DNA from: Blattabacterium sp. (Nauphoeta cinerea)
Lineage (GTDB): Bacteria; Bacteroidota; Bacteroidia; Flavobacteriales; Blattabacteriaceae
Direction: 5' to 3'
DNA: 64,000 bases
Assembly (NCBI RefSeq): GCF_000471965.1
Contig: NC_022550.1
Location: forward strand, 496,001-560,000
Of this stretch, positions 5,235 to 23,417 are shown piece after piece. The notes under the pieces were generated by a model. The model was not told the DNA's origin and ran no database searches. It saw only the letters and a list, made by a program, of their open reading frames with translations. The position numbers and the translations under genes were made by a program. How positions within the stretch are numbered: position 1 is the stretch's first letter; every line of letters starts with the position of its first letter.

Positions 5235-6937
5235 AAAAAATAGATAGAGAATCTTATGCAAGTATGTATGGCCCCACTAAAGGAGATAAAATTCGTTTAG
5301 GAGATACATCATTATGGATTGAAATAGAAAAAGATTATACTATTTATGGAGATGAATGTGTTTTTGGGGGGGGGAAAGTGATTAGAGATGGAATGGGACA
5401 ACATCCATTTGCCATAAGAGATGAAGGAGTTTTAGATTTAGTGTTAACTAATGCTATTATTATAGATTATTGGGGAATCGTAAAAGCGGATATAGGAATT
5501 AAAAATGGTATAATTGTTGGAATAGGAAAATCCGGTAATCCATATTTTATGGACGGCGTAGCTTCTAATATGTATATTGGAGCAGGAACAGAAGTGATTT
5601 CTTCAGAAAATATTATTGTAACAGCTGGGAGTGTAGATGGTCATGTTCATTATATATGTCCACAATTGTTTGAAGTCGCATTAGAAAGTGGAACAACTAC
5701 TATTATTGGAGGAGGATCCGGTCCGGCTACTGGAACTATAGCTACAAATTGTACTTCAGGTGTATGGAACATTCAAAGAATGTTAAAAAGTACAGATCAT
5801 ATTCCCATTAATTTTATTTTTCTTGCGAGTGGAAATAGTTCTCGTCCTGAAGCTTTAATTGAGCAAATAAAAGCTGGTGCAGGTGGATTAAAAATACATG
5901 AAGATTGGGGAAGTACTTTCCATGTTATAGATCAATGTTTAAATGTTGCAGAAAAATTGGATGTTCAAGTTAATATACATACAGATTCATTAAATGAATC
6001 AGGTTATGTAGAAGATACTTTAAAAATATTCAAAAATAGAACAATTCATACTTATCATACAGAAGGAGCTGGGGGGGGACATGCTCCTGATTTACTAAAA
6101 GTGATATCGTATTCCAATATTTTACCTTCATCAACAAGTCCTACTATGCCTTATACTTGCAACACTATAGATGAACATTTGGATATGTTAATGATTTGTC
6201 ATCATTTAGACTCTAATTTACCAGAAGATATTGCTTTTGCCAAATCACGTATAAGATCTGAAACTATTAGCGCAGAAGGAATTTTACATGATATAGGAGC
6301 CATTAGTATGACTAGTTCAGATTCTCAAGCGATGGGAAGAATCGGTGAAATCGTGAAACGAACATGGCAAACAGCTGATAAAATGAAAAAACAAAGAGGT
6401 TCTCTTAACGAAGACCATTTAAAAAATGATAATTTTAGGGTTAAAAGATACATTTCAAAATATACTATAAATCCTGCTATTACTCATGGAATTTCTGAAT
6501 ATGTAGGGTCTATTCATGTAGGAAAAATGGCAGATTTAGTCTTATGGAAACCTTCTTTTTTTGGAGTTAAACCTGAACTAGTTATAAAAAGTGGAATGAT
6601 TGTTTATGCTGGAATGGGAGACCCTAATGCAACTATTCCGACTCCTCAACCATTTATGTATAGAAAAATGTTTGGGTATTTCGAACCGAAATTAAGCAGT
6701 GTTTTTGTTTCAGTAAATGCAATAAATAATGGTTTTTTTGAAAAAAATGAAATTAAAAAACAAGTAAAAATAATAAAAGGGTGTCGGAATTTATCTAAAA
6801 AAAACATGATTTTAAATGAAAATACACCCAATTTAGAAGTAGATCCAAAAACATATAATGTCTATGTAAATGGAGAAAAAATAATCTCTCATCCTTCTGA
6901 TGTTTTACCACTTTCTCAAAGATATTTTTTATTCTAA
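5231..6937 (+). CDS. ureC: Urease alpha subunit (catalytic)
   Basis: Hydrolyses urea to ammonia and carbamate at a di-nickel site in the cytoplasm. All active-site residues are in place, each four residues later than in Klebsiella UreC: His138 and His140 (GHVHYICP), the lysine to be carbamylated Lys221 ([10 protein letters not shown]), His250 ([10 protein letters not shown]), His276 ([12 protein letters not shown]), Cys323 and His324 (MICHHLD) and Asp364 ([10 protein letters not shown]). Length (568) is normal. It overlaps ureAB by 4 bases. None of ureD, E, F or G lies in this window, so nickel insertion must rely on genes elsewhere. Two poly-G runs (nine G at 5366, eight G at 6071) are in frame. 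Confidence 0.97.
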
Positions 6938-9681: not shown

Positions 9682-10695
9682 TTGAGAAATTATACATTAG
9701 GAGAGTTTATTATAGAAGATAATAGAAATCGCTTTTCACATTCAACTGAAGCATTGTTACGATTATTTAGCTCTATAAAATTAGCTTCTAAAGCGATTCA
9801 TAAAGAAGTCAATAAAGCAGGATTAACAGAGGAGATAATAGGGAGTTCTGGCATTACTAATGTTCAAGGAGAAAACCAACAAAAATTGGATGATTTTGCT
9901 CATAGAGCTTTCATTGAATCTTTTAAAAGTAGAAATGTTGTTTGTGGAATCGCCTCTGAAGAAAGCAAAAATTTTATAGTGATAAAAGGAAAACAAGAAA
10001 ATATTTTTAAAAATCAATATATTGTTTTAATAGATCCACTTGATGGTTCTTCTAATATAGATGTTAATGTATCTATTGGAACTATATTTTCTGTATATAT
10101 AAGAAAATCTTCTATTCGAAAGAATTTAACGATAGAAGATTTTTTACAAAAAGGAAGTCAACAAATTCTTGCAGGATATATTATATATGGATCTTCTACG
10201 ATACTGGTATATAGCACTGGAAATGGAGTACATGGATTTACTTTAGATCCTTCAGTTGGAACATTTTATTTATCTCATTATAATCTTCGTTTTCCTAAAA
10301 CTGAAAAAATTTATTCTATTAATGAAGGAAATTATGCAAAATTTCCTAATGGAATTAGGAAATTTATAAGGTACTGTCAAGAAAAAAAAGATAATCGTCC
10401 TTACACAGCAAGATACATTGGATCTTTAGTCGGAGATTTTCACAGAAATTTGATACAAGGAGGAATATATATTTATCCTAAAACAGCTTCTTCTCCAGAA
10501 GGAAAATTGAGATTACTTTATGAATGTAATCCTATGGCTTTTTTATCTGAACAAGCAGGAGGAAAAGCTTCTGATGGGAAAAATAAACGTATTTTAGATA
10601 TAGTCCCTACTGAATTACATCAAAGAACTCCATTTATTTGTGGTCCTACAGAAATGGTTTCTAAATTAGAAGAGTTTATGGTAAATTGTGAATAA
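9682..10695 (+). CDS. fbp: Fructose-1,6-bisphosphatase class I
   Basis: Gluconeogenic phosphatase converting fructose 1,6-bisphosphate to fructose 6-phosphate. The 337-residue product has the metal and substrate motif [10 protein letters not shown] (118-127), [20 protein letters not shown] and [15 protein letters not shown]. The start taken is a TTG at 9682, because the protein then begins RNYTLGEFI as in the family and I see no ATG nearby. The 147-base divergent gap with plsC must contain both promoters. Confidence 0.94.
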
Positions 10696-10705
10696 ATTTT
10701 CATCA

Positions 10706-11057
10706 ATGCAGTTCAAAGAAAAAGAAACTTTTGAAAAAATAATAAAAAATGGGAAATATTTATTTGTATATCCTATTTTATCTGTTTTTTTATCAAAAGA
10801 AAAAAATTTTTTACAAAATTCAACAGTAAATCTTGTTGGAACTTTAGTAAAAAAAAAATTTTAAAAAATCAGTTCATAGAAATAAAATAAAACGTTTATT
10901 GAGAGCTTCTTTTTTTTCGAATAAATCGATTTTAGAAAAAATGCATAAAAATGTTTATATAATTTTTATATATAAATCTTTTTATTTTCCTGAATTTAAA
11001 AATATTAATGAATCTATTATAAACATTTTCAATAAAATAACCAAAAATCATTATTGA
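10706..11057 (+). pseudogene. rnpA: Ribonuclease P protein component, frame broken at an A10 run
   Basis: Protein partner of the RNase P RNA. From the ATG at 10706 (or a GTG at 10688 inside the end of fbp) the first frame reads MQFKEKETFEKIIKNGKY and then LVGTLVKKKF before a TAA at 10862. The second frame continues with KKSVHRNKIKRLLRASF, the family signature RNR box, and ends at 11057 (TKNHY). The two halves are one base out of register at ten A residues (10849-10858). Nine A would read LVKKNFKKSVHRNKIKRLL, an excellent RnpA sequence. RNase P is normally essential, so I think polymerase or ribosome slippage, or a base-count error, is more likely than real loss. Confidence 0.85.
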
Positions 11058-21148: not shown

Positions 21149-22312
21149 ATGCATTATTCATTTATACTTCTTAATTTCTTTATTTTATTTATATGCGTAT
21201 ATTTTTTTAGGAAATTGGAATTTTTTTTTAGAAAAGAATTTAAAGATCAACAAAATGAAATTCAAAATTTATATAAAAATAGTAGAATTGAAATAAATAA
21301 TTCATTAGTTGAAATAAAGATTGATTTGATACAAAATGTAAAAATATTTCAAGATTCTATTGATAAAAAAATTCAATTTTATATAGAGTCCCAAGATAAA
21401 AAATTAGATTCAATTTATACATCACAAGAAAAGTTTATTAAATTTATTGAGAATAAAATTGATGAAATCAGAGAAAATGTTAATGATAAACTTCAAACTT
21501 CTTTAAATGTGCATTTAGGGAAATCATTCGAAATAATTGGGAATCAATTATTTTTTTTACAAGAGGGATTAGGAGAAATGAAAATTTTAGCAAAAGATGT
21601 GAGTTCTTTAAAAAGAACTTTAAATCATATAAAAATATGTGGAAGTTTTAGTGAAATGCAGCTTTCAATGCTTTTACAACAAATATTATCTCCGGAACAA
21701 TATGCTTGTAATGTTGTCACGAAATCTAGTACAAATTTTGTGGTAGAATTTGCAATTAAACTTCCTGGATTTGGAGATGGAGATATGATATGGTTACCTA
21801 TTGATGTTAAGTTTCCAAAAGAAACTTATGAAAAAGTCCAGAAAGCTTATCATAATGGAGAAAAAAAAAATATAGAAATAGCTATAAAAAATATGGAATC
21901 TGTGATTAAAAAAATGTCCAAAGATATTCAAGAAAAATATATAGACCCTCCACATACTACTGATTTCGCTATTCTTTTTTTACCTTTTGAAGGTATATAT
22001 GCTGAAGTTGCAAGAAATTCTAGTTTATTAGAAGAATTATTAAGAAAATACAAAACAGTAATTACAGGTCCGTCCACATTAGCTGCTGTATTAAACAGTT
22101 TACAAATTGGGTTCAAAACTTTAGCTATTCAAAAAAGAAGTTCTGAAGTTTGGAAAATTTTGGAAATGGTAAAACAAGAATTCAAAAAATTTGGATTATT
22201 ACTTCATCAAGCTCAAGATAAATTGCAAGGAGCCTCCAAAGACATAGATAGATTATTAGGTGTTAGAATTAATTTGATAGAAAAAAAATTAAAAGATGTA
22301 GAAAATTTATAG
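21149..22312 (+). CDS. rmuC: DNA recombination protein RmuC homologue
   Basis: RmuC-family proteins are nuclease-like and limit DNA inversions. The 387-residue protein has one N-terminal membrane segment (about 3-20), a coiled-coil region to about 120 (repeated KIDLIQNVKIFQDSIDKKI-like heptads) and the conserved RmuC domain with LSPEQYACNV, LPIDVKFPKETYE, DFAILFLPFEGIYAEV and TGPSTLAAVLNSLQIGF. It begins 12 bases after tRNA-fMet. Its retention in a reduced genome is notable, since recombination genes are often lost. Confidence 0.92.
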   Translation: MHYSFILLNFFILFICVYFFRKLEFFFRKEFKDQQNEIQNLYKNSRIEINNSLVEIKIDLIQNVKIFQDSIDKKIQFYIESQDKKLDSIYTSQEKFIKFIENKIDEIRENVNDKLQTSLNVHLGKSFEIIGNQLFFLQEGLGEMKILAKDVSSLKRTLNHIKICGSFSEMQLSMLLQQILSPEQYACNVVTKSSTNFVVEFAIKLPGFGDGDMIWLPIDVKFPKETYEKVQKAYHNGEKKNIEIAIKNMESVIKKMSKDIQEKYIDPPHTTDFAILFLPFEGIYAEVARNSSLLEELLRKYKTVITGPSTLAAVLNSLQIGFKTLAIQKRSSEVWKILEMVKQEFKKFGLLLHQAQDKLQGASKDIDRLLGVRINLIEKKLKDVENL

Positions 22313-22319
22313 ATCGGAG

Positions 22320-22405
22320 CGGAGAGAAAGGGATTCGAACCCTTGACACTTTTTTTGTGAACACGCTTTCCAGACGTGCGCCTTAATCCTCTCGGCCATC
22401 TCTCC
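22320..22405 (-). tRNA. tRNA-Ser(GGA)
   Basis: Class II tRNA with a 7-bp acceptor stem (GGAGAGA with TCTCTCC), discriminator G, anticodon stem CACGT/GCGTG around the loop CTGGAAA with anticodon GGA, and a long variable arm. CCA is not encoded. Its 5' end directly abuts the 3' end of rnpB with no spacer. Confidence 0.95.
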
Positions 22406-22709
22406 AAAAAAGTAAAATTGTAAGCCGGATTCTGTTTCTACACCTATCATTTATCTAGGATCTAGGTTACCCATGATCTCAATCTGCCTACCCCCCGGTT
22501 TCAACCGAGCTAGTTTACCGGTATACATGGCATTTCACCACACAGAGTTTACATGATTTCACTACAGCTAATTTTGTATTCTGTACATTCTTTCTGTTGC
22601 ACTATTCCTCATCTCACGATGGATGGGTGTTACCCATTGTGTCGCTCTATGGTGTCCGGACTTTCCTCATTTTTTTTGTAAAAAAAATGCGATAGGACAT
22701 TTACTTTTT
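22406..22709 (-). ncRNA. rnpB: RNase P RNA
   Basis: Catalytic RNA of RNase P. The universal P4 halves are clear: GAGGAAAGTCCGGAC near the 5' end and ACAGAATCCGGCTTAC near the 3' end. I also see P1 (AAAGTAAA with TTTTACTTT), P2 (CCTATC with GATAGG) and a P3 hairpin made of T8 and A8. With P1 included, the RNA spans about 304 bases. Its 5' strand of P1 overlaps the last codons of yebC, and its 3' strand ends at 22406, next to the first base of tRNA-Ser. The boundaries come from the P1 pairing and are good to a few bases. Confidence 0.92.
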
Positions 22710-23417
22710 ATTTTCATCTAGGTTTGAGTAAATATTTTTTACATCCTCATTCAGGTAAAGTTTATCAACAAAATTTATAACTTTGTTTCTTTTTTCTTCT
22801 GAAAGATACTTAATTTGTTTTGGAATACGTTTGATTTTATACTCATGAAAAATTTTTAGTCTTTCTAAATTATTTTTCATCACTCCCAAATATTCCAAGT
22901 TAGTGTATAAATAAACCATACAATGATCTATTATAACATCTTGAGCTCCAAAATCTATTGTCATAAGTTGAAAATCCTCCATTGAATGATGAATATCTTT
23001 TTTCTTAATACAAAAAACCACCATTCTATGAAAAAAATGGCTTAATTCCCCATTATGACATAACCTTCCTCCATTTTTATTAAAAAGTGTTTTAATATGA
23101 GAACTAGTTCGAATGCTATTATTCGTCATACATTCTATAATTATACTAATTCCATGAATTAGTCCTTCTAAATTTAAATTTTTATAATCATCTGTTTTGA
23201 TTTGTAAAGCTTTTTTTATCGCTTTTTCTATAGTTTTTTTAGGAATATTAACTGATCTTGCGTTTAAAATTGCATTTTTGAAACGAGAATTATTGGTGCC
23301 TGATTCTTTGACGGCTGTAGAAATTTCTTTAATAAATTTAGAAAATTTTTTAGATTTTTTAAAATCTTGATTTGATTTCCTATGTTGTATATTTGACCAT
23401 TTACTGTGTCCTGACAT
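22701..23417 (-). CDS. yebC: YebC/TACO1 family protein
   Basis: A 238-residue protein of the YebC family, described as transcriptional regulators and, more recently, as aids to translation of proline-rich stretches. The signature N-terminus MSGHSKWSNIQHRKSNQDFKK is nearly complete to the usual KxxQD, followed by SKFIKEISTAVKESG and, later, the IIECMTNN region. The stop codon lies within the first bases of rnpB as I delimit it. The start is divergent from rpmB. Confidence 0.94.
   Translation of the reverse strand: MSGHSKWSNIQHRKSNQDFKKSKKFSKFIKEISTAVKESGTNNSRFKNAILNARSVNIPKKTIEKAIKKALQIKTDDYKNLNLEGLIHGISIIIECMTNNSIRTSSHIKTLFNKNGGRLCHNGELSHFFHRMVVFCIKKKDIHHSMEDFQLMTIDFGAQDVIIDHCMVYLYTNLEYLGVMKNNLERLKIFHEYKIKRIPKQIKYLSEEKRNKVINFVDKLYLNEDVKNIYSNLDENKK

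Follow-up and report, generated by a model that had tools for sequence, protein, structure and literature searches.

How is the 3΄ end of an RNase P RNA produced when its gene runs directly into a tRNA gene? The question is raised by the chromosome of Blattabacterium sp. (Nauphoeta cinerea), in which we analysed a window of 64,000 nucleotides, part of a genome of 626,626 bases. On the minus strand of this window rnpB, coding for the RNase P RNA, is followed by tRNA-Ser(GGA), so that the RNA of the enzyme forms the 5΄ leader of one of its own substrates.

The junction between rnpB and tRNA-Ser(GGA)

The features of the locus, in the order in which the minus strand is read, are the following.

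22701..23417, minus strand: yebC/TACO1-family gene, an ORF with PF01709 and PF20772, directly upstream of rnpB on the same strand
22406..22709, minus strand: rnpB, class A RNase P RNA (RF00010), with its 5΄ end at about 22709 and its 3΄ end at or near 22406
22700..22709, minus strand: 5΄ strand of helix P1, paired in the fold (22709-22700) with the 3΄ end of rnpB and overlapping the last yebC codons and stop
22407..22418, minus strand: 3΄ strand of P1, placed by the Rfam alignment as far as 22409 and extended to 22407 by folding and compensatory changes
between 22406 and 22405, minus strand: predicted RNase P cleavage site, at the tRNA 5΄ end and the proposed rnpB 3΄ end
22320..22405, minus strand: tRNA-Ser(GGA) (ARAGORN, 22405-22319; Rfam RF00005, 22405-22320), CCA not encoded
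21149..22312, plus strand: rmuC-family gene, an ORF with PF02646, convergent and ending 7 nt from the tRNA 3΄ end

The assignment of rnpB to class A is based on the sole RF00010 match of the genome, which lies at 22707-22405 (minus strand), covers the model in full length (1-367) and reaches 194.3 bits (E 2.4e-61) against a gathering score of 100; the gene is therefore present in a single copy. The conserved 3΄ motif ACAGAAYCCGGCUUA and a helix P1 closing the ends of the RNA were found in all 49 Blattabacterium genomes. The last paired base of the P1 3΄ strand in the Rfam alignment is 22409, and UUU (22408-22406) comes next. The whole-stretch fold adds further A-U pairs, so that P1 would run inwards from A22709-U22407 with the acceptor stem directly after it, and the one U that is left (22406) pairs in the fold with the discriminator G22320. 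This extended P1 is supported by folding and by compensatory changes across the genus (A-U to G-C and A-U to U-A), which include the outer pairs nearest the tRNA. The initial annotation, which had P1 ending at 22406 and the tRNA beginning at 22405, located correctly the point where the two genes meet but misplaced the end of the helix by 1–3 nt (P1 reaches 22409 in Rfam and 22407 in the extended form). Since G1 of the tRNA is at 22405, the established specificity of RNase P predicts cleavage between 22406 and 22405.

At its other end rnpB overlaps yebC, whose stop codon TAA (22703-22701) sits within the 5΄ strand of P1, and the rnpB promoter is therefore expected inside or upstream of yebC. 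rnpB and tRNA-Ser(GGA) are same-strand neighbours between which a terminator scan found no minus-strand terminator and a promoter scan of rnpB and the gap, weak and of low sensitivity in Bacteroidota, found neither a sigma-70-like nor a Bacteroidetes-type (TTTG/TAnnTTTG) site. Ser(GGA) is served by one gene among the 34 tRNAs of the genome, and this single-copy tRNA must therefore be released from its precursor. Tandem tRNAs elsewhere in the genome are spaced by about 3–21 nt, the same range as the rnpB-tRNA gaps, so rnpB is placed before tRNA-Ser like one tRNA before another. Elsewhere in the window, at 5381-5675 on the minus strand, there is an Rfam match to 5_ureB_sRNA of 42.5 bits, barely above the gathering score of 40.

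Conservation in Blattabacterium and recurrence in other lineages

rnpB was located in 67 of the 68 genomes of the family, and its 3΄ flanks were then read. The order rnpB then tRNA-Ser(GGA), in the same orientation, is shared by 49/49 Blattabacterium genomes, which confirms the synteny that the initial annotation had proposed to check in this genus and, together with the Rfam scores, led us to reject a chance alignment or a mis-annotation. From the invariant GGCTTA to G1 of the tRNA there are 13–41 nt across the genus. The unpaired gap between P1 and the tRNA, defined by a strict gapless pair count, ranges from 0 to 27 nt with a median of 5, being ≤3 nt in 24/49 members of the genus and 6–27 nt in about 40% of them. 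Exact abutment is typical of the genus, not invariant; the earlier description of the two genes as fused end-to-end fits the present genome (gap of 0–3 nt) but is overstated for the many relatives that keep 5–27 unpaired nt. The linkage in Blattabacterium says nothing about selection, because all the flanking genes are equally conserved: they are common to 1176/1176 genome pairs and the whole neighbourhood is frozen. We therefore rejected conservation within the genus as a proof of selection.

In the other genera of the family, including those with 200-kb genomes and the 1.3-Mb genome G053, no tRNA was found after rnpB, with the exception of the sister genus g3, in whose two genomes (G051 and G052; loci L061 and L064) rnpB runs into tRNA-Met(CAT). 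In g3 P1 borders directly on the tRNA, with 5–6 nt of overlap between the Rfam matches, which makes this pair an independent and even tighter case. The pattern was present in 0/328 genomes of the order outside the family; the flavobacterial synteny that the initial annotation had also proposed to check is not general, and we rejected the arrangement as a common flavobacterial feature.

When about 85,000 species were scanned for the pattern, 105 stretches emerged in which an rnpB-like 3΄ end lies closely before a tRNA; this number includes a few false hits or second copies. In most of these stretches the rnpB 5΄ motif is present and ARAGORN calls a tRNA, and 9/9 genomes tested from the scan carry real RNase P RNAs. 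A bacteria-wide enrichment of tRNAs after rnpB is not claimed here, as 105 in about 85,000 is not clearly above the expectation from gene packing; only persistence within some clades is informative. The partner tRNA differs between lineages.

Cardiobacteriaceae: tRNA-Arg (CCT anticodon)
SR1/Absconditabacteria: tRNA-Trp(CCA)
some Gemmatimonadota and Gastranaerophilales: tRNA-Arg(CCG)
Thermalbibacter-like bacteria: tRNA-His
Defluviitaleaceae: tRNA-Ser(GCT)
WOR-3: tRNA-Lys or tRNA-Leu

Linkage and flanking genes were counted in three of these groups on rnpB loci sampled regardless of linkage. In the Absconditabacteria (SR1) order a tRNA lies ≤60 nt after rnpB in 19/43 loci and within 400 nt in 6 more, and a flanking gene is common to just 15 of the 171 linked pairs. 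Among the Cardiobacteriaceae 11/12 genomes are linked, downstream genes being common to 2/66 pairs and upstream genes to 29/66; in Cardiobacterium hominis the GGCTTA motif of rnpB and the tRNA-Arg(CCU) that follows are 27 nt apart. Linkage is rare in Gemmatimonadota (4/50 within 60 nt). These counts support, for the SR1 order and the Cardiobacteriaceae, a linkage that is kept while the neighbours change. Some unlinked SR1 loci (e.g. L202 and L204) have a hairpin and then a T run directly 3΄ of rnpB, features that would not fit into the linked loci.

Two further observations were made among these loci. In the SR1 loci L213 and L227, tRNA-Arg(TCG) comes directly after rnpB and in L213 it is followed by tRNA-Trp, as would result from insertion of the Arg gene into an rnpB-tRNA-Trp pair. 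In Sporomusa (L135, L136 and L088) a class B RNase P RNA (RF00011, 219–229 bits) lies about 30 nt before tRNA-Arg(ACG), with similar loci at L086, L097, L103, L111, L119, L153, L168 and L172. The Sporomusa class B genes are found within tRNA clusters, in L135 beside a 6S RNA match. A search of a single Sporomusa genome (G399) revealed a strong class A rnpB at another site as well, so that one genome holds two classes of RNase P RNA.

Formation of the RNase P RNA 3΄ end

We propose that rnpB and tRNA-Ser(GGA) are probably expressed as a shared precursor, which RNase P, acting in trans, would cut at the 5΄ end of the tRNA; the same cut would also set, or limit, the 3΄ end of rnpB. The promoter would lie within yebC or further upstream, and pre-existing RNase P, a ribonucleoprotein with RnpA, would then make a single cut that frees pre-tRNA-Ser and leaves the rnpB 3΄ end at P1 or within a few nucleotides of it. 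In this genome the RNA would end at 22406, 1–3 nt from P1, making other 3΄ processing unnecessary, and roughly half of the species would require hardly any additional trimming, or none. With the gaps of 6–27 nt seen in about 40% of the genus, the RNA would still carry a tail after the cut, to be trimmed or tolerated. rnpB would thus act like the upstream member of a tRNA operon, and new RNase P RNA would depend on RNase P activity for its mature 3΄ end. Such a loop would sustain itself in trans, without any self-cleaving RNA. That the tRNA cut makes the rnpB 3΄ end, as the initial annotation had suggested, is the simplest reading of the anatomy of the locus (the gap, the lack of a detected terminator or promoter, the single-copy tRNA and the synteny), from which we infer co-transcription, the cut as the origin of this end and, beyond them, the maturation loop. 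The shared precursor is also supported by the recurrence in other lineages of short-gap rnpB-tRNA pairs with different tRNAs. The structure of the junction may act against easy cleavage: with the helix ending 0–1 nt from the cleavage site there is no single-stranded leader for RnpA and the cut could be slowed, and U22406 may in addition be paired with G22320.

Could the rnpB 3΄ end arise by another route, with RNase P finishing only the tRNA? In such a case a single transcript would be cut by an RNase E/G-type endonuclease, or trimmed by exonucleases from a cut at some other site. The 3΄ ends of E. coli rnpB are made by RNase E plus exonucleases; this gene, which like that of Blattabacterium codes for a class A RNA with ends closed by P1, carries a terminator of its own, the short 3΄ precursor is trimmed and, unlike in Blattabacterium, the gene is not followed by a tRNA. 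The 6–27 nt gaps of some relatives would also allow trimming. However, the ≤3 nt between P1 and the tRNA in the window hardly offer a site for another cut, and RNase P has to cut there anyway to free the tRNA, so we consider this route unlikely. Quite unlikely, too, is that the two RNAs are separate transcripts, with a tRNA-Ser promoter in the 3΄ half of rnpB and a closeness that merely reflects genome compaction. The region is indeed packed on both sides, by the yebC overlap and by rmuC, but the weak promoter scan gave nothing promoter-like in either rnpB or the gap, a separate rnpB transcript would lack a terminator, and transcription from rnpB would still continue into the tRNA.

The initial annotation had also considered that the precursor acts in cis, the rnpB part of each molecule folding back to cut its own tRNA. 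A tethered substrate can be cleaved by RNase P RNA in engineered constructs (PMC13022451; PMC11143913), which resemble the putative Blattabacterium precursor in joining ribozyme and substrate in one RNA. In the pre-tRNA/RNase P RNA conjugates of Frank, Harris and Pace (1994), as these are described in PMC13022451, the substrate is attached at the L15 region through an extra single-stranded segment, and in M1GS ribozymes guide sequences are placed at the 3΄ end of M1 RNA (PMC11143913). In contrast to the conjugates, where a linker at the binding face lets cleavage in cis work, the Blattabacterium join is at the P1 3΄ end without a linker, and cleavage in trans is therefore to be expected. A conserved and sufficiently long tether, as a self-cleaving RNase P RNA would need, was not what we found: it measures 0–3 nt after P1 in 24/49 genomes, the present one included, and its length varies from 0 to 27 nt in the genus. 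For these reasons we consider the cis reading highly improbable.

The protein partner in the proposed trans cut, RnpA, presents a peculiarity of its own. rnpA lies in the window at about 10688-11057 (plus strand); ten consecutive A residues immediately precede its conserved RNR motif, and a frameshift at this tract splits the gene. Among the Blattabacterium rnpA loci L337-L366, 27 were readable; at the same tract, here of 10 or 11 A, the reading frame is lost in 19 of them and interrupted by a stop in one more. The protein sequence after the tract is well conserved, and other members of the genus have intact copies. Frameshifts at A tracts are known to be rescued by transcriptional slippage in Blochmannia and Buchnera (PMC3017870) and, by analogy, slippage is the likely explanation here; a sequencing effect could also account for the frameshift.

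Precedents and meaning of the linkage

The separation of polycistronic transcripts at tRNA ends by RNase P and 3΄ tRNA nucleases, or tRNA punctuation, is classical. The parts of the putative Blattabacterium precursor would be separated at a tRNA end in the same manner as in bacterial tRNA operons but, unlike in ordinary ones, the cistron before the tRNA encodes the catalytic RNA of the very enzyme that does the processing, and maturation would thus feed back on the enzyme. The closest precedent is found in yeast mitochondria, where tRNA-fMet, RPM1 and tRNA-Pro belong to one transcription unit (PMC3797045; gene order also in PMC3429925) and the RNase P RNA gene is likewise joined to its own tRNA substrates. 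There, however, tRNAs lie on both sides and RPM1 is cut further into fragments, whereas in Blattabacterium the RNA is of the bacterial class A, the only adjoining tRNA lies downstream and there is nearly no spacer. In open-access papers, the literature that we covered, we found no report of a bacterial rnpB-tRNA arrangement. Thus tRNA punctuation and a mitochondrial RNase P RNA-tRNA unit are known, and the abutting bacterial version is apparently unreported in open-access papers.

What could such a linkage be for? Its recurrence in unrelated lineages, with different tRNAs and outlasting changes of neighbours, suggests that it may be useful rather than accidental. The further idea, that rnpB has been repeatedly placed and kept upstream of a tRNA in several lineages as a built-in control loop, is a tentative one, which we would rate as possible though on balance improbable. 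If true, the amount of mature RNase P RNA would be tied both to existing RNase P activity and to the synthesis of one essential tRNA. The interest of the finding lies mainly in this recurrence and in its direct testability: detailed knowledge of how RNase P RNA acquires its 3΄ end is limited to few bacterial species, and the genome counts provide a ready list of species for testing, including the cultured Cardiobacterium. In Blattabacterium RNase P would be required for its own maturation.
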